Below the pieces are notes generated by a model, which had not been told where the DNA came from, searched no databases, and saw only the letters and a program-made list of their open reading frames with translations. 64,000 nucleotides of DNA, taken from NCBI RefSeq assembly GCF_030323145.1, contig NZ_CP100470.1, positions 3,451,001-3,515,000 of the forward strand. Direction: 5' to 3'. This document shows positions 35,183 through 53,745 of the stretch, in pieces. This DNA is from Mesorhizobium sp. C432A (GTDB lineage: Bacteria; Pseudomonadota; Alphaproteobacteria; Rhizobiales; Rhizobiaceae). A program made the translations under genes and the position numbers. Position 1 is the stretch's first letter. Every line of letters starts with the position of its first letter.

Positions 35183-38167
35183 GCATGCGGCTCCCGTCCG
35201 GGTCGTAGAAATGGTTGGAGACGATCTCGATGGGCCCGAACCGCTTGCGCAGCGGATCGGAGACGAATGCCCGGGTACCATGGCGCGCCTTGCCGCCTTC
35301 GACCAGGGCCAGCGCGATGTGCTTGCCCAGCGCCGGCGAATAGCAGCAGGCGGTGATGTGGCCGATGGAATCGTGCGGATTGGCTTCGTCCAGTTGCTCG
35401 ACGAGGTGGGCGCCGCCATTGAACGGCCGGTTGTCGAGCGAGACCAGGCCGACCAGTTGCAGCCGCTCGGGCGCGATCAGGCCTTCGCGGTCCATCATCG
35501 CCGAGCCGATGAACGGCTTCTTCTTCGACAGCATCCAGTCGAGATGCAGGTCGCGCGCCGTGGTGCGCCCGTCGATCTCCGCGCCGGTGACATGGCCCTT
35601 TTCGATGCGCATCGTGCCCAACGCCTCCAGCCCGTAGGTGACCAGGGCGAACGGCTTGCCGGCTTCGATAAGGGCTTCCCAGACATGGGTGCCGTAGCCG
35701 GCGCCGCAATAGACCTCGAAGGCCATTTCTCCGGAGAAGGACAGCCGGCAAATCATCACCGGCACGCCTGATATCTCGCCGCGCACGATGCCCATGAAGG
35801 GCAGGGCTGTGTTGTCGACGGCGGTGCCGGTGACACAGGCGGCGAGGATGGCCCGCGCCTTCGGCCCGCCGATGGCCGCGCCCGCCCATTCGTCGGTTAC
35901 CGAGGTGACATGCACTTTGAGTTCCGGCCAGATGACGTCGAGGAAATATTCCAGATGCTGCATCACCTTGCCGGCGTTGGCCGTGGTGGTCGTCATCAGG
36001 AAATCCTGTTCGCCAAGCCGCCATGTGGTGCCGTCGTCGAAGGCCAGCCCGTCCTCGCGCAGCATCAGGCCGTAGCGGGCCTTGCCGACGGGGAGGGTGG
36101 AAAACATGTTGGTGTAGACGCGGTCGAGGAATTCGCCCGCATCCGGCCCTGAACGGCGATCTTGCCCAGCGTCGAGACGTCAACGATGCCGGCGCTTTCG
36201 CGCGTCGCCCTGGCTTCACGGACATAAGCCTGCTCGACCGTCTCGCCGGCAAGGCCGTAGATCATCGGTCGGAACCAAAGGCCGGCCGAATATAGGGTCG
36301 CACCATTGGCGAGGTGCCAATCATGCATCGGCGTCAGCCGCTCGGGCTTCAAATCGCCGAAACGCTCGGCGGCGAGCGAGCCGATCGACACCGCGGAATA
36401 GGGTGGGCGGAAGCGCGTCGTGCCGACTTCGGGGATCGGTTTGCCCAGCGCCTCGGCCATGATGGCGAGCCCCGGGACGTTGGAGTTCTTGCCCTGGTCG
36501 GTCGCCATGCCGAGCGTGGTGTAGCGCTTCAGATGCTCGACGGAGACAAAACCTTCGCGATGCGCCAGCCGCACGTCTTCGGCAGTCACGTCATGCTGGA
36601 AGTCGACGAAGCTTTTTCCCTTGGCTTTGATCTCGAACACCGGCGCCGGATCGGGGTTTCCCGGGGCTGCTTCGACATCCGGCAAAGCTGCCGGCGCAGC
36701 CGCTCCGCCCGCGGCGGACAGGCCGGCTGCACGGCCCTCAGTGATGGCTTCGACGGTCGAAAAGCTGCCGTTGAAAGCGCCGGCGCCAATCCATTGCCGA
36801 GTCGGTTTCGGCGGCAGGAAGGCCTGGCGGGCAGGGTTCCATTCGGCTCTGGCACCGGCCTGGCTGGCGAGATGGATGGTCGGCGACCAGCCACCCGACA
36901 TCAGCAGGCAATCGGCGTGGATGCTGCGGGCGTCACCGCTGAGCGCGCCCGAGGTCATGTCGAAGCGCTGCACCTTGAGGCCGGAGAGCGCCTTGCCGCC
37001 TTCGGTGGCGACCACGGCATGGCCGGAGAGGATTTCGGCTTCGGCCTCGGTGGCGAGGCTGCGCATTTCGGCCGAAAGCTCGGGGCGCACATCGACGATG
37101 GCGACAATAGCCGCCCCGGCCTTCCTCAGCGCCAGCGCCGAGCGATAGGCGCTGTCATTGTTGGTGAACAGCGCGATCCTGTCGCCGGGCAGCACGCCAT
37201 AATCGTTAGCATAGCGCTCGGCGGCATGCGCCAGCATGACGCCCGGCCGGTCATTGCCGGGGAACACAAGCGGCCGCTCGAAAGAGCCGGTGGCCAGCAC
37301 CACCGTCTTGGCGCGGATCGCCCAGTAGCGATGGCGCGGCTCGCCCTTGCCGGGCGTTTCCTTGTGGTCGGTGACGCGCTCGAGCGCGGCTAGCGTGTTG
37401 CCGTCGTAATAGCCCCACACCGTGGTGCGCGGCAGCAGGCGGACCGTGTCATGGCCTTCGAGCTGGCTGAGGGCGCGCGCCGCCCAGTCGGCGGCCGGCG
37501 CGCCGTCGATGGCCTCGCCGGACCAGTTGGCCGAGCCGCCGAAACGCGGCTCGAGTTCGGCCAGGATGACGCGCGCGCCCTGGTCGGCAGCGGCCTTGGC
37601 GGCTGACAGGCCGGCCGGGCCGGAGCCGACCACCAGCACGTCGCAAAACGCGTTCATGCGCTCGTAGCGCGAGGTGTCGGCGGCAATACCGGCGCGGCCC
37701 AGGCCGGCGGCGCGGCGGATGAAATGCTCGCAGAACATCCAGAAGCGGGTGCCTTTCAGGGGGCCGAAGACAGGGCCCATGAAGGTCTTGTAGTAGAAGC
37801 CGGCGGCCAGGATCTTGCCGCCGAGCTGGTTGACGGCGTTGATGTCCCAGGCGAGCGAGGGAAAGCGGTTCTGGCTGACGGCCACCAGCCCGTCATAGAT
37901 CTCGACCATGGTTGCGGCGACGTTGGGCTCGCGCACTTCGCCGCGCAGCACCGTCACCAGCGCGTTCGGTTCCTCGACGCCGGCCGAGAGCAGGCCGCGC
38001 GGGCGGTGGTATTTGAACGAGCGGCCGAAAAGCGTGACGCCGTTGGCAAGCAGCGCCGAGGCCAGCGTGTCGCCGCCATGGCCGGTGTAGGGCGTGCCGT
38101 CGAAGGTGAAGCGGATGGTGCGCATGCGGTCGACGCGGCCGCCGGTCTCGGTGCGGCGCGGGCTCAC
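35175..38167 (-). pseudogene. soxA: sarcosine oxidase alpha subunit, split by a one-base frameshift
   Basis: Two overlapping frames together make one SoxA of about 997 residues. The first (38167 to 36065, GTG start overlapping the soxD stop) carries the N-terminal ferredoxin-like fold (IRFTFDGTPYTGHGGDTLASAL), the NAD/FAD Rossmann motif GSGPAGLSAAKAAADQGA, and the body as far as IVDVSTLGKIAVQG. It then runs into unrelated residues and a stop. The second frame (to 35175) picks up at NMFSTLPVGKARYGL, exactly where SoxA should continue, through the C-terminal GcvT-type domain. One base is missing near 36145 (ATCCGGCCCT where ATCCGGGCCCT is expected). A sequencing error or a real mutation would both explain it. 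Without alpha the oxidase would not assemble. Confidence 0.85.
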
Positions 38168-38460
38168 GACTTGCCTCCGGCCTTGTGCCGGGCGGCGGCA
38201 TTGTGGTCGCCGCGGGCGAAACCGGTGCTGGAAATCTCATGCGTGACCGTGTTGCGCACCATCCTCAGATGGGTGCGGCAGCCGCCCGAATGCTGCCAGA
38301 TCTCATTGTGGTCGCCGGCCGGGTTCAGCCGATCGTAGACATAGGCGTTCCAGGCGTCGAGGTCCTGCGAGGCGGGCTGCGGGCGCTCGCGGTTGCCGTC
38401 GCCCTGATAGGTGAACTCGATGACGTCGCGCGGGCCGCAATAGGGACAAGTGATAAGCAT
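38164..38460 (-). CDS. soxD: sarcosine oxidase delta subunit
   Basis: The 98-residue protein begins MLITCPYCGPRDVIEF and has a later HSGGCRTHL. These supply the three cysteines and one histidine of the zinc site of SoxD. It starts at ATG 38460 and lies 11 bases after soxB. Its stop TGA overlaps the GTG start of soxA. The delta subunit stabilises the heterotetramer. Confidence 0.92.
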   Translation of the reverse strand: MLITCPYCGPRDVIEFTYQGDGNRERPQPASQDLDAWNAYVYDRLNPAGDHNEIWQHSGGCRTHLRMVRNTVTHEISSTGFARGDHNAAARHKAGGKS

Positions 38461-38471
38461 TTGTTTGAACC

Positions 38472-39731
38472 CTAATGCAGCCGGGGCGTTGCGCCCTGGC
38501 CCTTGTCGTCAATCACCAGGCCGCGATAAAAACGGTCGAGCGTGAACGGCGCGTTGAACGCGTGCGGTTCGTCCTTGGCGATGGTGTATGCGAAGCACCA
38601 GCCCGAGGCCGGCGTGGCCTTGAAGCCCCCATAGCACCAGCCGCAGTTGAGATACATGCCGGGCAGCGGGCCGGCGGTGATGATCGGCGAACCGTCCATC
38701 GACATGTCGCAGACGCCGCCCCAGGAGCGCAGCATGCGTACACGCGCAAGGCCGGGAAACAGTGCCAGCATCTCGCTCATGACCTCGTCGACGATGGGCA
38801 GATTACCGCGCTGGGCGTAGCTGTTGTAGCCGTCGATATCGCCGCCATAGACAAGGCCGCCCTTGTCGGACTGCGACATATAGAAATGGCCCATGCCGAA
38901 GGTCAGGACCGTGTTGCAGAACGGTTTCAGCGACTCTGTCACGAAGGCCTGCAGCACATGGCTCTCTATCGGCATGCTATCGATGCCGGCAAGCTGCATC
39001 ACCCGTCCGGTGCTGCCGGCAACGGCCACGGCAACTTTCTTGCCGCGGATCTCTCCGCGCGTCGTCTGCACGCCGGTGACGCGGTCGCCGTCGCGCAGGA
39101 AGCCGGTGACCTCGCAATTCTCGACGATGTCGATGCCGCGTCGGTCGGCGCCGCGGGCATAGCCCCAGGCAACCGCATCGTGACGGGCGGTGCCGGCGCG
39201 CGGCTGCATCAGGCCGCCGACGATCGGAAAGCGCGCCGAGGCCGACATGTCCAGCGCCGGGACCAGGCGCGCGATCTCGGCGGTGCTCATCAGCTCGGCA
39301 TCGACGCCGAGATGGCGCATGGCGTTGCCGCGCCTGGCCAAGTCGTCGAACTGGGCCGGCGTGTGAGCCAGGTTCAGGCAGCCGCGCTGCGAGAACATGA
39401 CGTTGTAGTTGAGGTCGTGCGACAGGTTCTCCCACATCTTCATCGAATGTTCGTAGAAGCGGGTGTTGGAGGGCAGGAGGTAGTTGGAACGCACCGCCGT
39501 GGTGTTGCGGCCGACATTGCCGGAACCCAGCCAGCCCTTTTCCAGCACCGCGACATTGGAGATGCCGTGCTCCTTGGCCAGATAGTACGCCGTCGACAGG
39601 CCATGGCCGCCACCGCCGATGATAATGACATCATAGGAGGCCTTGGGCTCGGGCTTGCGCCAGGCCGGCTTCCAGTCCTTGTTTCCCTTGAGCGCGTTCG
39701 TGAGAAGCGAAAGGGCTGAATATTCCGCCAT
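38472..39731 (-). CDS. soxB: sarcosine oxidase beta subunit
   Basis: The 419-residue flavoprotein has the FAD Rossmann motif IIIGGGGHGLSTAYYLAKEHG near residues 35-54 (quoted in part) and the segments GWLGSGNVGRNTT and MNGWCYGGFKATP-like NCGWCYGGFKATPASG near the C-terminus. SoxB holds covalent FMN (histidine) and FAD and oxidises sarcosine to glycine, giving 5,10-methylene-tetrahydrofolate and hydrogen peroxide with the other subunits. It is the first gene of soxBDAG, with its promoter in the 320-base region up to 40051. Confidence 0.94.
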   Translation of the reverse strand: MAEYSALSLLTNALKGNKDWKPAWRKPEPKASYDVIIIGGGGHGLSTAYYLAKEHGISNVAVLEKGWLGSGNVGRNTTAVRSNYLLPSNTRFYEHSMKMWENLSHDLNYNVMFSQRGCLNLAHTPAQFDDLARRGNAMRHLGVDAELMSTAEIARLVPALDMSASARFPIVGGLMQPRAGTARHDAVAWGYARGADRRGIDIVENCEVTGFLRDGDRVTGVQTTRGEIRGKKVAVAVAGSTGRVMQLAGIDSMPIESHVLQAFVTESLKPFCNTVLTFGMGHFYMSQSDKGGLVYGGDIDGYNSYAQRGNLPIVDEVMSEMLALFPGLARVRMLRSWGGVCDMSMDGSPIITAGPLPGMYLNCGWCYGGFKATPASGWCFAYTIAKDEPHAFNAPFTLDRFYRGLVIDDKGQGATPRLH

Positions 39732-43157: not shown

Positions 43158-44591
43158 ATGGATGCGCGGTCGGACAAGAACGCAATCCCGCTTGCGGTCG
43201 ACCTCGACGGCACGCTGATTGCGACCGATCTTCTTTGGGAAGGCCTGTTCATCCTGCTCAAGAAGAATCCGCTGTATGTTTTCCTGGTTCCGTTCTGGCT
43301 GGCCGCCGGCCCGGCGCGGCTGAAACAAGCGATTGCCGACCGCATCGACATCGATCCGGCCTCGCTGCCCTATCGCGAAGCGCTGCTGCAGCGGCTGCTC
43401 GCCGACCATAGCGACGGACGCAAGATCGTGCTGGCGACCGGTACGCCACGCAAGTTCGCCGAGACGATCGCCGCGCATCTGGGCGTCTTCGACTATGTGC
43501 TGGCGACCGACGGTCCCCACAACATGACCTCGGGCCGCAAGCGCGACGCGCTCATCGCCGCCTATGGCGACGGCGGTTTCGACTATGCCGGCAACAGCCG
43601 GCACGACCTCAAGGTTTTCGGAGCCGCGCGCAACGCCATCGTCGTGGCGCCCGATCGCCATGCGAAGCGCTGGCAGGCCGCGCATAGCGCCGAAAGGATG
43701 CCGGCGCCGAAAAGGACATTGAAGACATTCGTCAAGATGATGCGGGTGCATCAGTGGCTGAAGAATTCGCTGATCGCGGTGCCGATGGTGCTGTCGCATG
43801 AATACTTCAACATTAACATGATCTGGCAATGCCTGCTGGCGTTCGTCTCCTTCAGCGCCGTGGCTTCCGCCATCTACATTCTCAACGATTTCTTCGACCT
43901 TGCGCTCGACCGCAAGCATCCGACCAAACGCAACCGGCCTTTCGCCAGCGGCGCTTTGTCGATCCCGTTCGGTCTCGGCGCGATGGCGGTGCTGCTGGCG
44001 ATCGGCATTGCCGCCGGGCTTCTGTTGCCGATCGAGTTCCTGGGCGTGCTCGCCGGCTATCTGGTGGTGACCACAGCCTATTCGCTGTCGTTCAAGCGCA
44101 TGCTCCTAGCCGACGTACTGACGCTGGCCGGGCTCTACACGGTGCGTGTGCTGGCAGGTGCTGCGGCGACCGGGGTCGAAGTCTCGTTCTGGCTGCTCGC
44201 CTTCTCGATTTTCTTCTTCCTGTCGCTGGCGCTGGTGAAGCGCTATGTCGAACTGCGCACCACAGCCATTCCGGTGGGCGAGCGCATTGCCGGTCGCGGC
44301 TACCGCATCGAAGACCAGGAGATCGTCGCCCAGGCAGGAATGGCGTCGGCCTTCTCCTCGGCGCTGGTGCTGGCGCTCTACATGGACAGCGTCGCGGTAC
44401 GCGAACTCTATCCGCATCCCTGGCTGGTCTGGCCGCTGGCGCCGATCGTGCTGTATTTGACCATGCGGGTCTGGATCCTGGCGCGCCGCAACGAGATGAA
44501 TGACGATCCGGTCATCTTCATCATTCGCGACTGGCGAAGCCAGATCGTCGTGGTGATCGGCGCCGCCCTTCTGGTCGCGGGAGGCTGGTAG
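43158..44591 (+). CDS. HAD phosphatase-UbiA prenyltransferase fusion (DppR-like)
   Basis: The 477-residue protein starts at ATG 43158 behind AGGAAAG. Residues 1-190 are a HAD-type hydrolase (AVDLDGTLIATD with D15 and D17, later GTPRKFAE and NSRHDLKVFG). Residues about 195-477 are a UbiA prenyltransferase with nine helices and the metal-diphosphate motif NDFFDLALDRKHPTKRNRP (N near 243). In mycobacteria this second domain (Rv3806c) attaches phosphoribose to decaprenyl phosphate, and a separate phosphatase removes the 5-phosphate. The HAD domain could do that here. DprE1-like FAD oxidase follows at once. Confidence 0.88.
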   Translation: MDARSDKNAIPLAVDLDGTLIATDLLWEGLFILLKKNPLYVFLVPFWLAAGPARLKQAIADRIDIDPASLPYREALLQRLLADHSDGRKIVLATGTPRKFAETIAAHLGVFDYVLATDGPHNMTSGRKRDALIAAYGDGGFDYAGNSRHDLKVFGAARNAIVVAPDRHAKRWQAAHSAERMPAPKRTLKTFVKMMRVHQWLKNSLIAVPMVLSHEYFNINMIWQCLLAFVSFSAVASAIYILNDFFDLALDRKHPTKRNRPFASGALSIPFGLGAMAVLLAIGIAAGLLLPIEFLGVLAGYLVVTTAYSLSFKRMLLADVLTLAGLYTVRVLAGAAATGVEVSFWLLAFSIFFFLSLALVKRYVELRTTAIPVGERIAGRGYRIEDQEIVAQAGMASAFSSALVLALYMDSVAVRELYPHPWLVWPLAPIVLYLTMRVWILARRNEMNDDPVIFIIRDWRSQIVVVIGAALLVAGGW

Positions 44592-44594
44592 GGC

Positions 44595-45947
44595 ATGGCC
44601 GGCGAACGGTACCGGAGTTTTGGCCTCGCCACGCCGGCCGCAAAGCGAGCCATCGCGGCCGACGATGCCATCGCGCTGATGCGAAGCGGCAAGGCGACAA
44701 AGAACGCTCTGCTCGCCTATGGCAATGGCCGCTCCTACGGTGATTCCTGCCAGAACGGGCCAGGTGCGGTCGTGGACATGCGGCCGCTGAACCGCATCGG
44801 CGCCTTCAATGCCGAGACCGGCCTGCTCGAGGCGGAGGCCGGCGTGTTCCTCTCCGATATCATTGCGCACACTGCACCTTACGGTTTCTTTCCGACTGTC
44901 GTCCCAGGCACCCAGTTCGTCACCCTTGGCGGCGCGATCGCCAATGACGTCCATGGCAAGAACCATCACCGGCGCGGCACCTTTGGCTGCCATGTCGAGT
45001 CGTTCACGCTGCTGCGCTCGGACGGGCGGACCTACACCTGCTCGGCAACCGACAATGCAAGGCTGTTTGCGGCGACGATCGGCGGCATGGGGCTGACCGG
45101 CCTGATCCTGTCGGCCTCGATCCGGCTGATGCGGGTGCATTCGCTCGATATCGCCGAGAAGGTAACGCGGTTTGCCGATCTCGGCGAATTCTTCGAACTG
45201 GCCGAGGCCGCCGACCAGGCCAATGAATATGCCGTCGCCTGGATCGACCAGCTTGCCGGCGGCCATGGCCGCGGGCGCGGCCTGTTGTTGACAGGCAATC
45301 ATGCCGAGTATGGCTCGCATGCGGCGTCTCGCGCCGGCTCCCGTTTTTCAGTGCCGTTCCAGCCGCCGTTCAATGTGCTCAACCGGCCGTTCCTCACCGC
45401 CTTCAACGCCGCCTATCGGTGGAAGAAGGGGCGCTCGCCGGGGCCGAGCCAAACCGGCTACCAGGGCTTTTTCTTTCCGCTTGATGGTGTCGGCGACTGG
45501 AATCGGCTGTATGGCCCGAAAGGTCTCTACCAGCACCAGAGCTTGGTGCCGGAAAATGTCGCGCGCCAGACCGTGCCGGCGCTGCTCGAGGCGGCGCGAC
45601 GGGCCGGGCAGGGCTCTTTCCTCACCGTGTTGAAGCGCTTCGGCTCGATCCGCTCGCCGGGGCTGCTGTCTTTTCCGCGGCCAGGCTTCACGTTGACGCT
45701 GGATTTCCCCAATCGCGGCGACAGGACGCTGGCCCTGCTCAGCGAACTCGACGGCATCACGGTCGCGGCCGGCGGCGCGGTCAACCCGTACAAGGATGCG
45801 CGCATGGGCGCTGATACTTTCGCGGCCTCCTTCCCGAATTGGCAGCGGCTTGAAGCGCTGCGCGACCCGGCGTTCGTGTCCAGTTTCTGGCTGCGGACGG
45901 CGAAAAAGCTCAACGTCCGGCCAGGGCGTGTCGAGGCAGCTGAATAG
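44595..45947 (+). CDS. DprE1-like FAD-dependent oxidase
   Basis: The 450-residue protein is a VAO-type flavoenzyme that closely matches DprE1, the oxidase of decaprenylphosphoryl-ribose. It has YGNGRSYGD near residue 43, DVHGKNHHRRGTFGCHVESF near 120-140, and the C-terminal SFPRPGFTLTLDFPNRG near 358-374. The position of the mycobacterial drug-target Cys387 is occupied by threonine (T368). It begins four bases after the UbiA gene. The predicted step is oxidation of C2 of a polyprenyl-phosphoryl pentose; a DprE2-type reductase must complete the epimerisation. Confidence 0.85.
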   Translation: MAGERYRSFGLATPAAKRAIAADDAIALMRSGKATKNALLAYGNGRSYGDSCQNGPGAVVDMRPLNRIGAFNAETGLLEAEAGVFLSDIIAHTAPYGFFPTVVPGTQFVTLGGAIANDVHGKNHHRRGTFGCHVESFTLLRSDGRTYTCSATDNARLFAATIGGMGLTGLILSASIRLMRVHSLDIAEKVTRFADLGEFFELAEAADQANEYAVAWIDQLAGGHGRGRGLLLTGNHAEYGSHAASRAGSRFSVPFQPPFNVLNRPFLTAFNAAYRWKKGRSPGPSQTGYQGFFFPLDGVGDWNRLYGPKGLYQHQSLVPENVARQTVPALLEAARRAGQGSFLTVLKRFGSIRSPGLLSFPRPGFTLTLDFPNRGDRTLALLSELDGITVAAGGAVNPYKDARMGADTFAASFPNWQRLEALRDPAFVSSFWLRTAKKLNVRPGRVEAAE

Positions 45948-46071
45948 GTACAATCCGAATAAGTCATGGTGAATAGATCGTAATTTCCGTGGTTTACTCA
46001 AAGCATTGTCGTGACTTCATGAAATGTTTGCAGGTTCGTAATACGACCGTTGCGAGTGGCGGGTGCAAAAT

Positions 46072-46515
46072 ATGAAATACATCGTCTTCATTCTGTTCAC
46101 GGTCATGACCAATGCCGCCGCGCAGCTGATGCTGAAGCAAGGCATGATGTCACTCGGGCCGATTTCGTTCGAAGGCACCAATCCGCTGTTGAGGCTGTTG
46201 CAGGTCGTTTTCAGCCCATGGGTGTTTCTCGGCCTGTGCACCTTCGTCATCTCGATGGCTTCGCATCTCTATGTGCTGTCCAAGGTCGAGCTCAGCTTTG
46301 CGTATCCGTTCCTCAGCCTTGCCTATGTCGCGGTTGCGATCTTCGCCTATTTCATCTTCCGCGAGGACCTCAATGCCTGGCGCATTGCCGGCATCGCCTT
46401 CATCTGCGTCGGCACCGTGCTGATCGCGCAAAGCGGTCGAGACTTGGGCGGGCGCGGGCATGACGACCAAACCGCTTCCATCATCCCCAACAAGACCAGC
46501 GAGATCGTTCGATGA
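46072..46515 (+). CDS. small multidrug-resistance/EamA-type membrane protein (ArnE-like)
   Basis: The 147-residue protein has four membrane helices and EamA/SMR-like sequence (TNAAAQLMLKQGMM near the start, YPFLSLAYVAVAIFAYFIFRE, GIAFICVGTVLIAQS). ArnE/ArnF-type proteins flip undecaprenyl-phosphate-aminoarabinose across the inner membrane. Within a polyprenyl-phosphate sugar cluster, a flippase subunit role is likely. Its stop overlaps the start of the SDR gene. Its upstream region 45948-46071 may hold a promoter, as it is AT-rich. Confidence 0.83.
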   Translation: MKYIVFILFTVMTNAAAQLMLKQGMMSLGPISFEGTNPLLRLLQVVFSPWVFLGLCTFVISMASHLYVLSKVELSFAYPFLSLAYVAVAIFAYFIFREDLNAWRIAGIAFICVGTVLIAQSGRDLGGRGHDDQTASIIPNKTSEIVR

Positions 46516-47519
46516 GACATGTTATTTTCGGCGGCGACGGCTTCGTCGGCCGTCATCTTGCCCCGAAGCTTGTGGCCGATGGTGAAGAGGTTGTCGTTGC
46601 CGACATCGTCAAGAGCGACCTGGCGCACTATCGCAACGTTCGCTTCGTCACCTGCGATGTCACGGATACGGCCTCGGTGGCCAACATCGGATTGAAGGCC
46701 GACGACATGGTCTACAACCTGTCGGCCAAAATGCTGTCGCCGATCCAGGTGCGGGCCAAGCGTCACGACTTCTTCTTTCCGGTGAATCTCCACGGCACCG
46801 AACACATCATGCAGGCGATGGACAAGGCCGGCGCGTCCAAGCTCGTCCACTACACCACGGACATGATCTACGGCCACACGGTCACCCAGCCGATGACCGA
46901 GGAGCACCCGGTCGCGCCGCTCGGCGAATATGGCTGGTCGAAGCAGAAGACCGAGGAGCTCGCCGCGCAATGGCGCAAGCGCGGCATGTCGATCTCGCTT
47001 TTTCGACCGCGGCTGATCATCGGTCCCGGCCGGCTCGGGATCCTGGAAAAGCTGTTCAAACTGATCGACTGGAATTTTCCTGTGCCGATGATCGGCTCGG
47101 GCAAGAACCCCTATCAGTTCATCTCGGTGTTCGATTGCGCGGAAGCTGCCCGCGCGGCCTGGAAGGCAGGCGTGCCCAACCAGGCCTATAATCTGGGCTC
47201 CCTCAATCCGCCGCCGGTGAAGAAATTGCTGGGCGACCTGATCAAGCATGCCGGCTCGAAATCGCTGCTGATCCCGACGCCGGGCTGGGCGGTCAAGCGC
47301 ACCCTCGACCTGCTCGATCTCATGAACATGCCGATCATGGATCCCGAACAATATCTGATCGCCGATGAGGAGTGCGTGCTCGACGTATCCAAGGCCGAGC
47401 GCCAGCTCGGCTGGGTGCCGCAATATCGCGACGAGGACATGCTGATCGCCGCCTACAGCGAATACCGCGCCAAGAAAGACGGGCTTGCCGTCACCGCAAA
47501 TCATGTCCCCGCCGAATAG
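46512..47519 (+). CDS. NAD(P)-dependent epimerase/dehydratase (extended SDR)
   Basis: The 335-residue protein has the nucleotide-binding motif GGDGFVGRHL at 7-16 and the catalytic pair Y140-G-W-S-K144. The substrate domain includes FRPRLIIGPGRLGILEKL. It fits the extended SDR sugar epimerase group. In this setting it could be the reductase partner of the DprE1-like oxidase (DprE2 of mycobacteria is also an SDR, but a classical one) or it could act on a nucleotide sugar. It follows the ArnE-like gene with ATGA overlap and precedes the aminotransferase gene by 25 bases. Confidence 0.87.
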   Translation: MRHVIFGGDGFVGRHLAPKLVADGEEVVVADIVKSDLAHYRNVRFVTCDVTDTASVANIGLKADDMVYNLSAKMLSPIQVRAKRHDFFFPVNLHGTEHIMQAMDKAGASKLVHYTTDMIYGHTVTQPMTEEHPVAPLGEYGWSKQKTEELAAQWRKRGMSISLFRPRLIIGPGRLGILEKLFKLIDWNFPVPMIGSGKNPYQFISVFDCAEAARAAWKAGVPNQAYNLGSLNPPPVKKLLGDLIKHAGSKSLLIPTPGWAVKRTLDLLDLMNMPIMDPEQYLIADEECVLDVSKAERQLGWVPQYRDEDMLIAAYSEYRAKKDGLAVTANHVPAE

Positions 47520-47544
47520 GTGGGACGACCAGGAGAACTCCGAA

Positions 47545-49017
47545 ATGACCGTCATGGCCAAGCCTGAGCAGACGAACGCGCGCACCATGCTCGGCGCGCC
47601 GGCGTTGTCGCCTACCGCCATCGCCAAGCCCGACCTGATCAGCGTCGAGCAGGCGAAGGCGATGGATGTTGCGCGCATGACCGACTTGTTCAAGGCGCAT
47701 CTCAATCCGGGCCAGCTGCATTTCATGAAGCTGCTCGGCTTCCACAAGATCAAGATCGAGCGTGCCGAAGGCATGTTCTACATCGACCAGAACGGCCGCA
47801 AGATTCTCGACTTCTTCGGCGGCTTCGGTTCGCTGGCCTTCGGCCACAACCATCCGCGCATCCTGGAGGCCCGGCGCAAATTCCAGGAGGAGAAGCGCCA
47901 GGAAATCGCCATCGCCTTCATGTCGCAATATGCATCGGCCCTTGCGCACAACATCGCCAAATGCTCGCCCGGCGATCTCGACATGGTGTTTCTGGGCTCG
48001 TCGGGTTCGGAAGCGATGGAAGCGGCGGTGAAGCTCGCCGAGCGCGCCGCCGGGCCTAAGAGGCCAAAAATCGTCTATGCCGAGAATTCCTTCCACGGCA
48101 AGACCAAGGGCGTGCTCGGCATTACCGATGGCCAGCTCTACCGCGCGGACTTCAAGATGGCTGAGAACACCGTTCGCATTCCGTTCGCCGATATCGAAGC
48201 GGTCGAGCGGCTGTTCCGCTCCGACCCGGAGGTCGGCGTCATCGTGCTTGAGACAATCCAGGGCGGCGGCGGCATCATCCAGGCGCCGGCCAAATACTGG
48301 CAGAAATTGCGCGTGCTCTGCGACCAGTATGGCGTGCTGTGGGTGGCGGACGAAGTGCAGTGCGGCTATGGCCGTTCGGGACGCTTCTATGCCTTCGAGC
48401 ATTATGGCGTCGTGCCCGATGTGACGGCGCTGGCGAAATCGCTCGGCGCCGGCAAGGCGGCGGTCGGCGCGATGATCGCCCGGCGCGAGGTCTATATGAA
48501 GGCCTATGGCACGCCGAAGACGGCGATGATCCATGCCATGGCCACCTTTGGCGGCATGGGCGAGGCCTGCGTCACCGCGATCGAGGGCATCAACGTGCTC
48601 TATGATGAGGGGCTGATCGACAACGCCGCCACTACCGGCGACTATCTGCTGCAGCGCCTGCAGGCGCTGAAGGAGAAGTACCCGAAGATCATCAAGGATG
48701 TGCGCGGCAAAGGCTTTATGGTCGGGCTCGAGTTCCACGACTTCTCGCAGACCTTGCCGATGGTGCTGCGTCCGATCGTCAGCGTCCTCGACGACAAGCT
48801 GAAGGGCTCGCTGTCGGGCTTCGTCGGCGCGCTGTTGCTGCGCGACTATGACGTGCTCGTCGCCTTCACCGAATACAACCGCAACGTCATCCGTCTCGAG
48901 CCGCCGCTGATCTGCCAGCGCGAGCATGTCGACCATTTCGTCGATGCCTTCGATAGCCTGCTGTCGCGCGGCATCGTGGGGATCGTGAAGGATTTCGTCA
49001 AAAGCCAGGTCCGTTAA
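47545..49017 (+). CDS. class III aminotransferase (PLP)
   Basis: The 490-residue protein starts at ATG 47545 after AGGAG. It belongs to the ornithine/acetylornithine/GABA aminotransferase-like group, with GSSGSEAMEAAVKLA near residue 150-164, LWVADEVQCGYGR with D in VADEV, and the catalytic lysine K298 in VTALAKSLGAGKAA. The extra C-terminal length (about 450-490) is modest. Sugar aminotransferases usually come from the DegT family, so this one may act on a small acceptor or an amino-alcohol side group. Its place in the cluster suggests a glycan decoration step. Confidence 0.87.
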   Translation: MTVMAKPEQTNARTMLGAPALSPTAIAKPDLISVEQAKAMDVARMTDLFKAHLNPGQLHFMKLLGFHKIKIERAEGMFYIDQNGRKILDFFGGFGSLAFGHNHPRILEARRKFQEEKRQEIAIAFMSQYASALAHNIAKCSPGDLDMVFLGSSGSEAMEAAVKLAERAAGPKRPKIVYAENSFHGKTKGVLGITDGQLYRADFKMAENTVRIPFADIEAVERLFRSDPEVGVIVLETIQGGGGIIQAPAKYWQKLRVLCDQYGVLWVADEVQCGYGRSGRFYAFEHYGVVPDVTALAKSLGAGKAAVGAMIARREVYMKAYGTPKTAMIHAMATFGGMGEACVTAIEGINVLYDEGLIDNAATTGDYLLQRLQALKEKYPKIIKDVRGKGFMVGLEFHDFSQTLPMVLRPIVSVLDDKLKGSLSGFVGALLLRDYDVLVAFTEYNRNVIRLEPPLICQREHVDHFVDAFDSLLSRGIVGIVKDFVKSQVR

Positions 49018-49050
49018 AGAAGTCCGTTGAGCGAAGTCCCGAGTCCGACA

Positions 49051-50277
49051 ATGCTGAGCAAGTCTCCCGCCCCGCAAAACACACTCGACCGGCTGACCGC
49101 GGCCGCTCTGGCGTGGGGCGAGGGGACTTATGCGCGATGGGCCGCGCCAATCGGCGCGATCGCGTTTTCGCTCTATATCCTGCTGACGGCGTTTACCGCC
49201 TGGACGATGCCCGATGCCAATTGGGACATGCTGCCTTATCTCACAATCGCCGAGGAGGGCGCTTACCCAGATGCCCAGGCGCTGCATGACTATGCCTACA
49301 GGACGGTCCAGGCCGGCGTTTCGGCCGCCGACTACAAGGCGCTGACAGACGATGGCGGCGGCTTCCGCAGCCATATGGCGCAAAATGCCGCCGACTTTCA
49401 CTCGCTGCTTGGCATGTACCGGATCAAGTTTCTCTATGCCGAGATGCTGTCGACGATGAGTTCGGTGATGTCGCCGGTCGAGGCGATGCGGGTGCTGCAG
49501 GTGGTCTCGGTGCTGCTGTTCGGGATGATCACGCTGCTGTGGCTGCGAACCGAAGGCGCGCTTGCGCTGGCGCCTGTGGTCGGCGCGGTGCTGATCATGG
49601 CCGATTTCGGCGATGCCGCACGCGCCTCGACCCCGGATCTGTTGTGCTCGGCGCTGTTCCTCGGCGGGCTGCTTGCCTATGTGCGCGGCCGCGAGGCAGC
49701 GACCGCTGTCCTGCTTTTCCTGGCCTTCATGGCGCGGCCGGACAACATCGTGTTCCTGGCCATTTTCGCCGTGCTGCTGCTGGTCTTCCGGCAGCGGGCG
49801 TGGGGCGCGCTGGCCGGCTTTGCCGCGTCCTTCGTCGCCTATTTCGCGATTTCGCACTGGGCCCAGCATCCCGGCTGGTGGCCGCATCTGTGGTTCTCCA
49901 GCATCGAGCAGCACTACAATATGGATGGCTTCGAGCCGCCGTTCTCGGTTGGCGCCTATCTCAAGGCGTTTGCCGCATCCTTCATTCGCGCTATCAGCAT
50001 CAACAGCTGGGTCGGGGTCTCGGTTCTGGCGCTGGCCGCGTGGTTTGCGCTCGGCCGCGCCGGCTTCCGGCTCGATCGCCGCGCCGGCATCCTGCTTGCA
50101 GCACTGGTGCTCGGCGTGCTGGCGAAATTCACCGTCTTTCCGATCCACGACACCCGCATCTACTTCCCGAACCTTCTGCCGCCCTACCTTTTGCTTGTCG
50201 GCCCGATCATGGCGCTGTGGGCGTCGGCAAGCCTGAATGGAAGGCGGCCCATCGCCATACCTGGAGGTAAGCCATGA
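49051..50277 (+). CDS. polytopic membrane protein, possible GT-C glycosyltransferase
   Basis: The 408-residue protein (ATG 49051, an upstream TTG at 49027 is also possible) has about nine or ten membrane helices. The first large outside loop carries the acidic DANWDMLPYLTIAEEGAYP segment near residues 50-68 (quoted in part), as in GT-C enzymes that use polyprenyl-phosphate sugars. No close family is recognised. The neighbours make it the best candidate for the enzyme that transfers the flipped sugar outside the membrane. It overlaps the FkbM gene by ATGA. Confidence 0.6.
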   Translation: MLSKSPAPQNTLDRLTAAALAWGEGTYARWAAPIGAIAFSLYILLTAFTAWTMPDANWDMLPYLTIAEEGAYPDAQALHDYAYRTVQAGVSAADYKALTDDGGGFRSHMAQNAADFHSLLGMYRIKFLYAEMLSTMSSVMSPVEAMRVLQVVSVLLFGMITLLWLRTEGALALAPVVGAVLIMADFGDAARASTPDLLCSALFLGGLLAYVRGREAATAVLLFLAFMARPDNIVFLAIFAVLLLVFRQRAWGALAGFAASFVAYFAISHWAQHPGWWPHLWFSSIEQHYNMDGFEPPFSVGAYLKAFAASFIRAISINSWVGVSVLALAAWFALGRAGFRLDRRAGILLAALVLGVLAKFTVFPIHDTRIYFPNLLPPYLLLVGPIMALWASASLNGRRPIAIPGGKP

Positions 50278-51029
50278 GTTCCATTTCCGGGCTGGCGCGC
50301 ATCGCCCTTTCGCTCGGCCTGCCCGCCGGCCTGCTCGATCGCGGGCCGGCGTTGCGTGGCACGAAATTCCTGGCCAAGGCGGCGCTGAAGGCGCGGTTTG
50401 GCGGTGGGCAAGCCTTCCAGATGGTCAATGTCGGCGCTTGCGACGGCGCGCTGTTCGACGACGTCACGCCGTGGCTGCACCGCATTCCGCGGGCGCGGGC
50501 CGTGCTGGTCGAGCCGATCCCGTACAATCAGAAGCGGTTGCGCGCCAACTATCCCGACACGGAACGCTTCGTCATCGAACCGGTCGCGGTGACGAAGACC
50601 AAGGGCACGATCACCGTCCACACTTTCGATGCCGCGGCACTCGAGGCCGGCACGCTGCCGATCGAGTTCATCGGCTGCTCGTCGGTCACCGACACCAATC
50701 TGATGTCGGGCAAGAATGCCTGGGGCGAGGACGACGCCAATTTCAACAAGTTCGCGCCGCACGTGAGGGATATCGAGGTGACGTCGGAAACGCTGCAGAC
50801 GCTGCTCGACCGCAACGGCATCACGCATATCGACGCCTTCCTGGTCGATTGCGAGGGCGCCGACTGGATCGTCTTCGAACAGCTCGACCTCAAGCGCTAC
50901 CGCCCCGGCATGATGAAGGTCGAGGTCGGCGCGCTGCCGGCGGCTGAAATCGGCGAGGTCGTGGTCAAGCTCAAGACATCAGGCTATCAGGTCGGCTTCC
51001 AGGCCGAGGACATCTGGGCCTTCGCCTGA
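50274..51029 (+). CDS. FkbM family methyltransferase
   Basis: The 251-residue protein has the FkbM/Methyltransf_21 core. VNVGACDGALFDDVTPWL near residues 49-66 is the SAM-binding glycine loop, VLVEPIPYNQKRLRANYP follows, and FLVDCEGADWIVFEQLDL near 188 is the typical second half. FkbM enzymes O-methylate sugars or polyketides. Overlap with the preceding polytopic gene places it at the end of the glycan cluster, and it could methylate the transferred sugar. Confidence 0.87.
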   Translation: MSSISGLARIALSLGLPAGLLDRGPALRGTKFLAKAALKARFGGGQAFQMVNVGACDGALFDDVTPWLHRIPRARAVLVEPIPYNQKRLRANYPDTERFVIEPVAVTKTKGTITVHTFDAAALEAGTLPIEFIGCSSVTDTNLMSGKNAWGEDDANFNKFAPHVRDIEVTSETLQTLLDRNGITHIDAFLVDCEGADWIVFEQLDLKRYRPGMMKVEVGALPAAEIGEVVVKLKTSGYQVGFQAEDIWAFA

Positions 51030-51183: not shown

Positions 51184-53745
51184 ATGGCAGAGTTTCCGAA
51201 ACAGGCGAAGGTCGTCATCGTCGGCCTGGGTGGCATTGTCGGCGCGTCGATCGCCCATCATCTGATCGAACGCGGCTGGACCGACATTGTCGGCATCGAC
51301 AAATCGGGCATCCCGACCGACATCGGCTCGACGGCGCATGCCTCGGACTTCTGCTACACCACCAGCCACGACTTCTTGTCCTGCTGGACGACGCTCTACT
51401 CGATCGATTTCTACGAAAAGATGGGCCATTATGCCCGCATCGGCGGCCTCGAAGTGGCGCGCGTCGGCGACGACAGCCGCATGGACGAGATCAAGCGCAA
51501 GATCGCCTCGGCCAAATCCTTCGGCACCCGCGCCCGGCTGATCGAACCGGCCGAGATCAAGGAAAAATTCCCGCTGATCGAAGAGTCCATGGTGCAGGGC
51601 GGCCTGTGGGATCCGGACGCCGGCCTGGTCATCCCGCGCTCGCAGACCGTCGCCGGCAAGCTGGTCGACCAGGCGGAAGCTACGGGGAAACTCAAATCCT
51701 TCGCCAACACGCCCGCCAAATCTCTCATCGTCGAGGAAGGCCGCATCAAGGGCGTCGTTACCGACCGCGGCACGATCATGGCCGATTATGTCATCGTCTG
51801 CGCCGGCATCTGGGGCCGGCTGATCGCCGAGATGGTCGGCGAGGACCTGCCGGTCATGCCGATCGACCATCCGCTGACCTTCTTCGGTCCCTACAATGAG
51901 TTTGCCGGCACGGGCAAGGAGATCGGCTGGCCGCTGCTGCGCGACCAGGGTAATTCGGCCTATATGCGCGACACCGGCGACCCCAGGACCGCCGAGGGTG
52001 GGCAGATCGAATGGGGTTATTACGAAGAGACCAATCCGCGCCTCTGCCATCCGCGCGATTTGCTGGAAAAGGATCAGGCGCGGCTGTCACCGTCGCAGCG
52101 CGATCTCGACATGGAGCAGATCCTGGCGCCGCTTGAGCGCGCCATGGAGCTGACGCCGATCCTGGGCGAACTCGGCTACAATGAAAGCCATTCCTTCAAC
52201 GGCCTGTTGCAGGTGACCCCCGATGGCGGCCCGTCCATGGGCGAGAGCCAGAAGGTGAGGGGCCTCTGGTACGCCGTCGCCATCTGGGTCAAGGACGGCC
52301 CCGGCATGGGCAAGCTGATCGCCGACTGGATGACGGACGGCCGCACGGAAATCGACCATCACGCCATCGACTATGCGCGCTTCTATCCGCACCAGACGAA
52401 AGAGCAGTTCATCTGGGATCGTTGCACCGAGACGGCGATGAAGGTCTACAATCCGGCGGTGCATCCGCGCGAGCCGTTCTCCAAAGGTCGCAACATCCGC
52501 CGCTCGCCGTTCTGGGAGCGCGAGAAGGAGCTTGGCGGTTACTTCATGGAGCTGGGCGGTTGGGAGCGCGCGCATGGCTATGCCGCCAACGAGCATCTGC
52601 TGGAGAAGTATGGCAACCGGGTTCCCGTACGTGAGAACGAATGGGACAACCGCCATTTCTGGCGGGTGTCCAATGCCGAGCACCTGGCGATGAGCGAGGA
52701 TTGCGGCATCGTCAACCTCTCGCATTTCTCGATGTACGACATCGAAGGGCCGGACCATGTCGCGCTGCTGGAGTGGCTGTGCGCGGCCAAGATTGGTGGC
52801 GACAACAATATCGGCAAGGGTATCTACACCCACTTCCTCGACGAGGAAGGCATGGTGCGCGCCGACTTCACCGTCATCCGCATGGCCGACCGCTGCCGTC
52901 TGATCGACGGCGCCGACGCCGGTCCGCGCGACTTCCGCTACATGCAGCGCACCGCGCAGGACAAAGGCTTTGACGTCACCATCACCGACGTGACGGAAAA
53001 ATACGTCACCATCGGCATCTGGGGACCGAACGCGCGGGCGACGCTGCAGAAAGTGGTCGAAAATCCGGATGGTCTCTCGCTCGAGAACTTCCCCTTCGCG
53101 GCGATCAAGCCGGTCAGGATCGGCGGCAAGGACGTCACCGCCTTCCGCATCTCTTATGTCGGCGAGCAGGGCTGGGAACTGCATATGCGTTACGAAGACG
53201 GCCTGGCCGTTTGGGACGCGCTGCGCTCGACCGGGGTCATGCCGTTCGGCGTCGAGACCTATGCCAACACCCGGCGCATGGAAAAGAGCCTGCGCCTGCA
53301 GAACGCCGACCTGTTGACCGAGTACAATCTGCTCGAGGCCGACCTTGCTCGACCGAAGGTCAAGGAGAACGATTTCTGCGGCAAGGCAAAACATGTCGAA
53401 TACCGCGCCCGCGAGCACCAGCCGGCGATCCTGTGCACGCTGGTGATGACGGAAAACGTCGATTCGAAGGGTGTTGCCCGCTATCCCGTCGGCACCATGC
53501 CGGTGATGGATCCGAAGACCGGCGAGACGCTGGTCGACGAACTCGGCCGCCGCTCCTTCACCACATCGATGGCCTACGGCCCGACCATCGGCAAGAACAT
53601 CGGCCTCGCCTATCTGCCCTGGGCCCATGCCCAGGAGGGCCGCAAGTTTGCCATCGAATATTTCGGCGAGACCTACCCGGTCGAGGTGGCTGCCGTCGGC
53701 TACAAGCCGCTCTACGATCCAGAGAATCTGAAGCCGAGGAGTTGA
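51184..53745 (+). CDS. FAD-dependent dehydrogenase with GcvT domain, third copy
   Basis: The 853-residue protein has an FAD domain (VVIVGLGGIVGASIAHHL) and a GcvT C-terminal half (VSNAEHLAMSEDCGIVNL, YVGEQGWELHMRYE, VKENDFCGKAK). The flavin-attachment position differs from the other two copies: GSTAHASDFC (H52) stands where they have TWHAAG. The length, N-terminus and central region also differ. It is probably a demethylase for another N-methylated or O-methylated compound. It stands alone, with a terminator at 53772-53799, and a putative operator upstream. Confidence 0.88.
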   Translation: MAEFPKQAKVVIVGLGGIVGASIAHHLIERGWTDIVGIDKSGIPTDIGSTAHASDFCYTTSHDFLSCWTTLYSIDFYEKMGHYARIGGLEVARVGDDSRMDEIKRKIASAKSFGTRARLIEPAEIKEKFPLIEESMVQGGLWDPDAGLVIPRSQTVAGKLVDQAEATGKLKSFANTPAKSLIVEEGRIKGVVTDRGTIMADYVIVCAGIWGRLIAEMVGEDLPVMPIDHPLTFFGPYNEFAGTGKEIGWPLLRDQGNSAYMRDTGDPRTAEGGQIEWGYYEETNPRLCHPRDLLEKDQARLSPSQRDLDMEQILAPLERAMELTPILGELGYNESHSFNGLLQVTPDGGPSMGESQKVRGLWYAVAIWVKDGPGMGKLIADWMTDGRTEIDHHAIDYARFYPHQTKEQFIWDRCTETAMKVYNPAVHPREPFSKGRNIRRSPFWEREKELGGYFMELGGWERAHGYAANEHLLEKYGNRVPVRENEWDNRHFWRVSNAEHLAMSEDCGIVNLSHFSMYDIEGPDHVALLEWLCAAKIGGDNNIGKGIYTHFLDEEGMVRADFTVIRMADRCRLIDGADAGPRDFRYMQRTAQDKGFDVTITDVTEKYVTIGIWGPNARATLQKVVENPDGLSLENFPFAAIKPVRIGGKDVTAFRISYVGEQGWELHMRYEDGLAVWDALRSTGVMPFGVETYANTRRMEKSLRLQNADLLTEYNLLEADLARPKVKENDFCGKAKHVEYRAREHQPAILCTLVMTENVDSKGVARYPVGTMPVMDPKTGETLVDELGRRSFTTSMAYGPTIGKNIGLAYLPWAHAQEGRKFAIEYFGETYPVEVAAVGYKPLYDPENLKPRS

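Follow-up and report, generated by a model that had tools for sequence, protein, structure and literature searches.

A cluster of seven co-directional genes in a 64,000-nucleotide stretch of the genome of Mesorhizobium sp. C432A (contig NZ_CP100470.1; this whole stretch is hereafter the window) probably encodes a pathway that uses a class III aminotransferase instead of the reductase DprE2. A 2-keto pentose formed on polyprenyl phosphate by a DprE1-like oxidase would be aminated to a lipid-linked 2-amino-2-deoxypentofuranose, flipped by a small carrier, and transferred by a GT-C-type glycosyltransferase. We give this reading a probability of roughly 0.58. The case for a lipid-linked aminopentose is built on the gene content, the precedent of ORF15 of Citrobacter youngae, the fold modelled for the GT-C enzyme, and the replacement of DprE2 and GtrA by other genes. 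Protein families, motifs, gene order, the modelled fold, and the exclusion of DprE2 and GtrA are what we observe; from these we infer all of the reactions, which carbon is aminated, the stereochemistry, the direction in which the sugar is transported, and the glycan that accepts it. What is new here is the presence of an aminotransferase in place of DprE2, since the fusion of a HAD phosphatase to UbiA and the occurrence of such pathways outside actinobacteria are known. Among the titles and abstract openings of the literature matches listed, we found none that ties an aminotransferase to a UbiA/DprE1 pathway and none that describes a 2-amino-2-deoxypentofuranose made on polyprenyl phosphate.

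Distribution of the aminotransferase and of DprE2

Orthologues of the aminotransferase (66-96% identical in the order samples) occur in 12 of 249 and in 21 of 397 genomes sampled from the order to which the window belongs, in two of 240 genomes of its class, and in five of 299 genomes of its phylum, all five of them congeneric with the window; the source genome of the window is itself counted each time. The 23 aminotransferase loci comprise 21 from the order, one from another order of the class (genome G205), and one on a Neorhizobium plasmid (loci are labelled L and genomes G: L098 = G205, L157 = G848, and L131 = G443). In 22 of these 23 loci, UbiA and DprE1 genes lie within 10 kb of the aminotransferase; in the 23rd (G759) the DprE1-like gene is on another contig. 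Among 65 UbiA-positive genomes, we read the neighbourhoods of the aminotransferase genomes, of 24 DprE1-positive genomes without the aminotransferase, and of 15 without a DprE1 match, taking locus gene content from profile searches together with a codon-usage gene caller. Genome searches scored the best candidates (3-6 for the aminotransferase, eight for the extended short-chain dehydrogenase/reductase [SDR], and up to 45 for DprE2), and absences in them are absences among the scored candidates.

A DprE1-like oxidase is present in 36 genomes of the 249-genome sample. DprE2 is found genome-wide in none of the 12 that also carry the aminotransferase versus 23 of the 24 that do not (P = 1e-8, Fisher's test on the 36 genomes, relatedness not corrected for). 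The sole genome without DprE2 among these 24, G443, is also without a UbiA match. With the DprE2 model NF053786 at E 1e-27, there was no match in any of 22 aminotransferase genomes, the best 45 of 52-87 candidates having been scored in 11 of them. For the window's own genome all 71 candidates were scored, and the best reached 81 bits. DprE2s adjoining related oxidases score 148-206 bits with this model, all DprE2 matches found lying below its curated cut-off of 250 bits. At the locus level, DprE2 occurs in none of the 23 aminotransferase loci versus 22 of the 24 other DprE1 loci; stray scores with the DprE2 profile in four aminotransferase loci are 41-48 bits, and those of real DprE2s 248-385.

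The carrier differs along the same line. By profile search, an ArnE/F-like EamA gene is found in 22 of the 23 aminotransferase loci versus one of the 24 others, and GtrA of either type in none of the 23 versus 14 of the 24. Only one of the 24 (L114) combines EamA and SDR genes. DprE2 and GtrA are thus exchanged for the aminotransferase and the ArnE/F-like carrier. A DprE1-like match occurs on 62 plasmid records; of these, only that of Neorhizobium sp. SOG26 has the aminotransferase (at 1e-100), and the locus there has neither DprE2 nor GtrA. We read this locus and 10 plasmid loci without the aminotransferase; nine of the 10 contain UbiA, GtrA, and DprE2.

The extended SDR and its relation to DprE2

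The preliminary description of the cluster had let the extended SDR fill the DprE2 role and treated amination as a possible decoration. Several points favor such an arrangement, in which the sugar would be an unmodified pentose such as arabinose, while the aminotransferase would decorate the glycan, a side group, or something else. The SDR is found in 20 of the 23 aminotransferase loci, its NAD motif (GGDGFVG) and catalytic YGxSK are conserved throughout a 21-row alignment, and none of the 22 aminotransferase genomes yielded a DprE2. Citrobacter ORF13 is, moreover, a precedent for an SDR acting on a lipid-linked pentose (PMC11127046). However, two genomes have UbiA, DprE1, and the aminotransferase with neither enzyme: in G398 and G420 there is no SDR orthologue at 1e-60 among the best few candidates scored (eight where counts are listed), and no DprE2 among all 26 candidates in G398 or the best 45 of 85 in G420. 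The aminotransferase therefore remains the constant partner in these genomes. A third aminotransferase locus without the SDR (L157) lies outside the SDR genome sample. Conversely, G281 carries the SDR and the carrier together with a DprE2 on another contig and lacks the aminotransferase orthologue, its four class III enzymes being 22-31% identical to that of the window. In G467 (L134), UbiA is adjoined by an SDR 43% identical to the window's, and neither the locus nor the genome (at 1e-40) shows a DprE1; this SDR looks more like an ORF13-like epimerase than a partner of DprE1. Absence of DprE2 is matched more closely by the aminotransferase than by the SDR, and the aminotransferase looks like the constant partner of DprE1. 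We therefore regard replacement of DprE2 by the SDR as unlikely; the gene that excludes DprE2 (none in 22 genomes) is the aminotransferase. For the SDR itself, no NCBIfam model scored above its cut-off among the matches listed.

The aminotransferase

The aminotransferase matches Pfam PF00202 at 284.9 bits (cut-off 30.5). Its pyridoxal phosphate lysine, in a LAK motif, aligns with those of the solved structures 4ppm and 4uox and is invariant in 23 of 23 family members, and it keeps the arginine of FTEYNRNVxR, which we take to correspond to the arginine that binds the carboxylate in ornithine aminotransferase. Where the solved relatives read IQGEGG, the sequence here is IQGGGG, with glycine fixed at the glutamate position in all 23; on this alignment, what we take to be the gate glutamate is lost in the family.

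Among models and solved chains, putrescine aminotransferase and PigE, an enzyme of prodigiosin synthesis, come closest (4ppm is presumably PigE). These matches, together with the fact that class III aminotransferases are common, could mean that the gene works in a separate amine or amino-acid pathway and merely sits beside the others. Its distribution makes this very unlikely: all 12 aminotransferase genomes of the 249-genome sample have the oxidase, the gene lies near the oxidase in 22 of the 23 loci, and it was never found together with DprE2. We had also considered a 1-deoxyxylulose-5-phosphate synthase gene upstream in L098 and dropped it, as it was seen at this locus alone among the neighbours scanned. 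A part in hopanoid metabolism is a further candidate role for the aminotransferase.

The oxidase and the number of exchanges

In the DprE1 tree (INDEPENDENCE; 47 rows), 21 of the 22 aminotransferase-linked oxidases fall in one clade (support 96/84), which also includes those of G281 and G443; these two genomes seem to have lost the aminotransferase. In G443 the DprE1-like gene (L131) is an orphan, with no UbiA, DprE2, or aminotransferase nearby. The remaining aminotransferase-linked oxidase, that of L098, is the outermost member of a group with 14 DprE2-type oxidases and Mycobacterium tuberculosis DprE1 (100/99 split). The aminotransferase, SDR, and carrier of L098 are 68%, 62%, and 69% identical to those of the window, its UbiA has no HAD part, and its aminotransferase forms the longest end branch of the family in the aminotransferase tree. 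The trio of aminotransferase, SDR, and carrier thus occurs with two distinct UbiA/DprE1 backbones, neither of which has DprE2. At least two changes of state are required by the DprE1 tree, which implies two origins, or re-assemblies, of the exchange.

The equivalents of Y60, H132, K134, Q334, Q336, K367, and K418 of M. tuberculosis DprE1 are retained in all 22 aminotransferase-linked oxidases; all but Y60 are residues that we take to form the active site of the mycobacterial enzyme. Positions 332, 364, 387, 415, 417, and 431 separate most aminotransferase-linked from DprE2-linked oxidases. At 387, the equivalent of the cysteine that is presumably the target of benzothiazinones, threonine is found in 20 of 22 aminotransferase-linked and alanine in 21 of 22 DprE2-linked oxidases.

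These six positions raise an alternative in which the oxidase acts on another carbon, for example ring C3, leading to a 3-amino-3-deoxypentose, or a similar sugar, on the lipid. Positions 415 and 417 adjoin K418 in sequence, and 387 is the presumed benzothiazinone cysteine. Nevertheless, L098 and L100 pair the aminotransferase with an ordinary-looking oxidase that has DprE2-type letters at all six positions, so that amination does not need them, and the catalytic positions examined are unchanged. Oxidation at another carbon is accordingly quite improbable, and we dropped the six positions as a functional mark of amination, keeping them as a mark of lineage.

The HAD-UbiA fusion

The first gene of the cluster combines a HAD domain (Pfam, 37.9 bits) with a UbiA domain (77.8 bits) and matches NCBIfam NF006088 at 627.5 bits (cut-off 351). 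The UbiA half matches the structure of the M. tuberculosis decaprenyl-phosphate phosphoribosyltransferase (8j8j) at 9.4e-25. The fusion carries the motifs DLDGT in the HAD part and NDFFDLALD and RYVEL in the UbiA part. All 22 UbiA genes linked to the aminotransferase have NDxxDxxxD, and 21 have RxxE. The HAD motif is DLDGT in 12, a near-variant (DLDGS, DLDHT, DLDNT, or DLNGT) in six, unclear in one (L101), and absent in three (L098, L158, and L160), where the UbiA frame has just 302-343 residues; the single neighbour scanned in L158 and in L160 is not a HAD phosphatase. No relative of the fusion was found in a phage collection at 1e-10.

Membership in the UbiA superfamily would also allow a quinone precursor as the substrate. 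The genome holds three other UbiA-family genes scoring 212.8-221.6 bits, against 78.5 for this one. With NCBIfam models the domain scores 150 bits for the decaprenyl-phosphate phosphoribosyltransferase (NF008977; below its cut-off of 234) and 25.6 for ubiquinone UbiA. These scores, with the 8j8j match and the NDxxDxxxD motif, make a quinone role extremely improbable, and we rejected it.

A biochemical precedent exists for the predicted reactions. ORF15 of C. youngae has the same HAD-UbiA order and converts phosphoribosyl pyrophosphate (PRPP) to polyprenyl-phosphate ribofuranose in vitro, its HAD domain taking off the 5-phosphate; ORF13, an SDR, then converts ribose to xylose (Ribf to Xylf), and a GT-C enzyme attaches the sugar outside the cytoplasm (PMC11127046). 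Because ORF15 is biochemically proven, neither the fusion, which had been pointed out earlier and is indeed present, nor the non-actinobacterial occurrence is new. A polyprenyl-phosphate pentose pathway thus stands in outline as a prediction from sequence; the novelty earlier attached to its setting outside actinobacteria does not, as DprE1/DprE2 systems there have already been described (PMC11127046, PMC2443382, PMC5080398). PMC11127046 also mentions an arabinose system for Pseudomonas aeruginosa pilin. The rhizobial noe precedents cited earlier are borne out, as noeCHOP (PMC2443382) and noeCNHOP (PMC5080398).

Carrier, glycosyltransferase, and FkbM gene

Pfam and NCBIfam matches agree with the earlier assignment of the third gene as an ArnE-like carrier, insofar as family matches can tell. 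Compared with solved structures, it has no convincing relative, and the same is true of a 549-residue polytopic neighbour in L153. The sixth gene scores 21.8 bits with Pfam GT87 (PF09594), under the gathering score of 25. Its AlphaFold model, made from an alignment of the query with 29 relatives (76-98% identity) and one at 29%, has a GT-C fold, with ArnT second among the listed structural matches, so that the suggested GT-C-type transferase gains support from the modelled fold. As far as genes go, the cluster brings together a lipid-pentose synthase, a carrier, and a GT-C enzyme, the content of a three-component pentofuranose system. A protein recorded under Bradyrhizobium sp. Arg314 (P0169) is 86% identical to the sixth gene product and reflects either a misnamed record or a transfer.

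The FkbM gene is the strain-variable part: it is found in 59 of 80 related loci and is truly absent in 13 of the other 21, where the sixth gene directly adjoins the flanking gene.

Cluster layout and conservation

The seven genes occupy positions 43158-51029 on the plus strand of the window (Table 1), with the families, direction, and place first described for them confirmed. They overlap or are separated by gaps of 3 to ~125 bases. The source genome is a single contig of 6.02 Mb. Among named strains, the closest matches to the cluster come from Mesorhizobium, on which basis we place the window in the order Hyphomicrobiales. Of 80 related loci, 76 carry the name Mesorhizobium; an identical order of genes 1-5 is kept in 77, and contig ends truncate the remaining three. 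The cluster is therefore more than a chance assembly. Conservation across the order, which it had been proposed to check, is patchy (the 21 of 397 genomes given above), and the gene order holds among the close loci. Within the genus, four genomes of the order sample have UbiA, DprE1, SDR, and aminotransferase, and three have none of them at the thresholds used, so the module looks all or nothing there.

Beyond the nearest neighbours, the gene at 51184-53745 (plus strand) has DAO and GCV_T domains and is dimethylglycine-dehydrogenase-like, and minus-strand frames at 36065-39731 resemble sarcosine oxidase genes, as read from the frames alone. Both flanking groups are seemingly unrelated to the cluster.

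Table 1. Genes of the cluster in the window, and the third kind of DprE1 cluster on plasmids
Feature	Position	Strand	Remark
HAD phosphatase-UbiA fusion	43158-44591	+	Predicted polyprenyl-phosphate phosphoribosyltransferase and 5-phosphatase
DprE1-like FAD oxidase	44595-45947	+	Predicted to form the 2-keto pentose
ArnE/F-like EamA protein	46063-46515 (ATG 46072 alternative)	+	Predicted carrier of the lipid-linked sugar
Extended SDR	46512-47519	+	Predicted accessory epimerase/reductase of the lipid-linked pentose
Class III aminotransferase	47545-49017	+	Predicted to aminate the 2-keto pentose instead of DprE2 reduction
GT-C-fold membrane glycosyltransferase	49027-50277 (ATG 49051 alternative)	+	AlphaFold model
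FkbM methyltransferase	50274-51029	+	Pfam 49.8 bits (cut-off 22.7); optional component
Third cluster kind	L175 4433-10623; L176 4409-10591; L178 4472-10711		Plasmids

Other DprE1 clusters

The tenth plasmid locus without the aminotransferase, on pSymB of Sinorhizobium meliloti Ak57 (L173, 5896-7221), is an orphan DprE1-like gene. Its product has five of the six letters of the aminotransferase clade, and there is no UbiA, GtrA, DprE2, or aminotransferase nearby. On a plasmid of Sinorhizobium alkalisoli (L180, 4335-9175), one of the nine loci with DprE2, a UbiA-GtrA-DprE1-DprE2 cluster lies upstream of nodA and nodB and is apparently a noe-type locus for the arabinosylation of Nod factors. A third kind of cluster combines UbiA, a DprE1-like gene, DprE2, a further extended SDR, a PRK07233-family flavoprotein, and GtrA, and is found in Rhizobium tumorigenes, Agrobacterium salinitolerans, and Burkholderia stagnalis; its SDR and flavoprotein also occur in seven genomes of the order sample. 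By its gene content, it is predicted to carry out another pentose modification.

Proposed pathway

In the pathway that we propose, the UbiA domain would link ribose 5-phosphate from PRPP to polyprenyl phosphate, and the HAD domain would strip the 5-phosphate. The extended SDR may then epimerise the sugar, in the manner of Citrobacter ORF13 (Ribf to Xylf). The DprE1-like enzyme would oxidise C2 and the aminotransferase would aminate it, after which the EamA protein would flip the product and the GT-C enzyme would transfer the sugar to an outer glycan. The FkbM protein may methylate the sugar or the glycan. We see about even odds for the broader idea of a nucleotide-free amino-sugar route, in which ribose from PRPP is remodelled on polyprenyl phosphate to 2-amino-2-deoxypentofuranose by a DprE1-like oxidase and a dedicated class III aminotransferase, flipped by an ArnE/F-like EamA protein, and handed to varied GT-C enzymes to give a new, positively charged surface furanose.

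A number of points weigh against amination in place of DprE2. Class III sugar aminotransferases are generally known to use terminal aldehydes. The best NCBIfam match of the oxidase, NF053785 (DprE1), gives 321 bits and does not reach its cut-off of 500, so we call the enzyme DprE1-like only; three oxidases adjoining a DprE2-like gene, at 373-403 bits, are likewise below 500. The carrier is named only ArnE/F-like for the same reason, scoring 51.9 bits for ArnF (cut-off 99) and 37.7 for ArnE (cut-off 92). Of the six positions that separate the two sets of oxidases, some are presumably near the substrate site and could go with another oxidised carbon. In some relatives the phosphatase motif is altered or the HAD part is missing. 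The SDR is nearly as constant (20 of 23 loci) and also fits a substitute for DprE2 in the genomes that have it. The absences of the SDR in G398 and G420, and of DprE2 in 11 genomes, apply to the best candidates given above. The GtrA and locus DprE2 profiles were derived from aminotransferase-free clusters, as was the flavoprotein profile, and only the NF053786 test is independent of that choice. The independent events are few, so that a single arrangement passed on by descent accounts for most of the strength of the counts. Finally, among the literature titles listed, none pointed to a glycan with such an aminopentose from these bacteria.

Comparison with known systems

If amination on the lipid is correct, it joins dephosphorylation and epimerisation (PMC11127046) as a transformation of polyprenyl-phosphate pentoses. 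Lipid-linked aminopentoses would then have a second, unrelated origin besides 4-amino-4-deoxy-L-arabinose, a new charged surface sugar would be predicted for many Mesorhizobium strains and scattered relatives, and the aminotransferase would be an easy genome marker for such a glycan.

The mycobacterial pathway (DPPRS, DprE1, DprE2, and Rv3789) resembles the cluster in its UbiA phosphoribosyltransferase, in the catalytic residues of DprE1, and in its final GT-C transferases. Rv3789 is, we assume, a GtrA-family protein; the cluster of the window, in contrast, has no DprE2 or GtrA that we could find, and has an aminotransferase, an ArnE/F-like carrier, and a fused phosphatase instead. The ArnB-ArnE/F-ArnT pathway is similar in having a lipid-phosphate aminopentose, an ArnE/F-type carrier, and, by family and fold matches, an ArnT-like GT-C enzyme. 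That pathway makes 4-amino-4-deoxy-L-arabinose on uridine diphosphate with a DegT-type aminotransferase, whereas the amino sugar of the window's cluster would start from PRPP, be built on polyprenyl phosphate, and depend on a class III enzyme.

The rhizobial noe systems (PMC2443382, PMC5080398) and the S. alkalisoli plasmid locus share UbiA, a DprE1-like oxidase, and a rhizobial host. The plasmid locus has GtrA and a DprE2-like SDR and lies near nod genes, whereas the cluster of the window is without both and the neighbours scanned are not nod genes. The C. youngae O1/O2 clusters (ORF12-ORF15, PMC11127046) are alike by description and motifs: they have the HAD-UbiA fusion, a small carrier, a GT-C enzyme, and, in O2, an SDR epimerase. 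Their carrier is of the MATE family and their GT-C enzyme founds GT136 (PMC11127046), whereas the carrier in the window is an EamA protein. In the part of that paper at hand no DprE1-like oxidase is described, and the word "aminotransferase" does not appear in its main text (PMC11127046); the cluster of the window has both.

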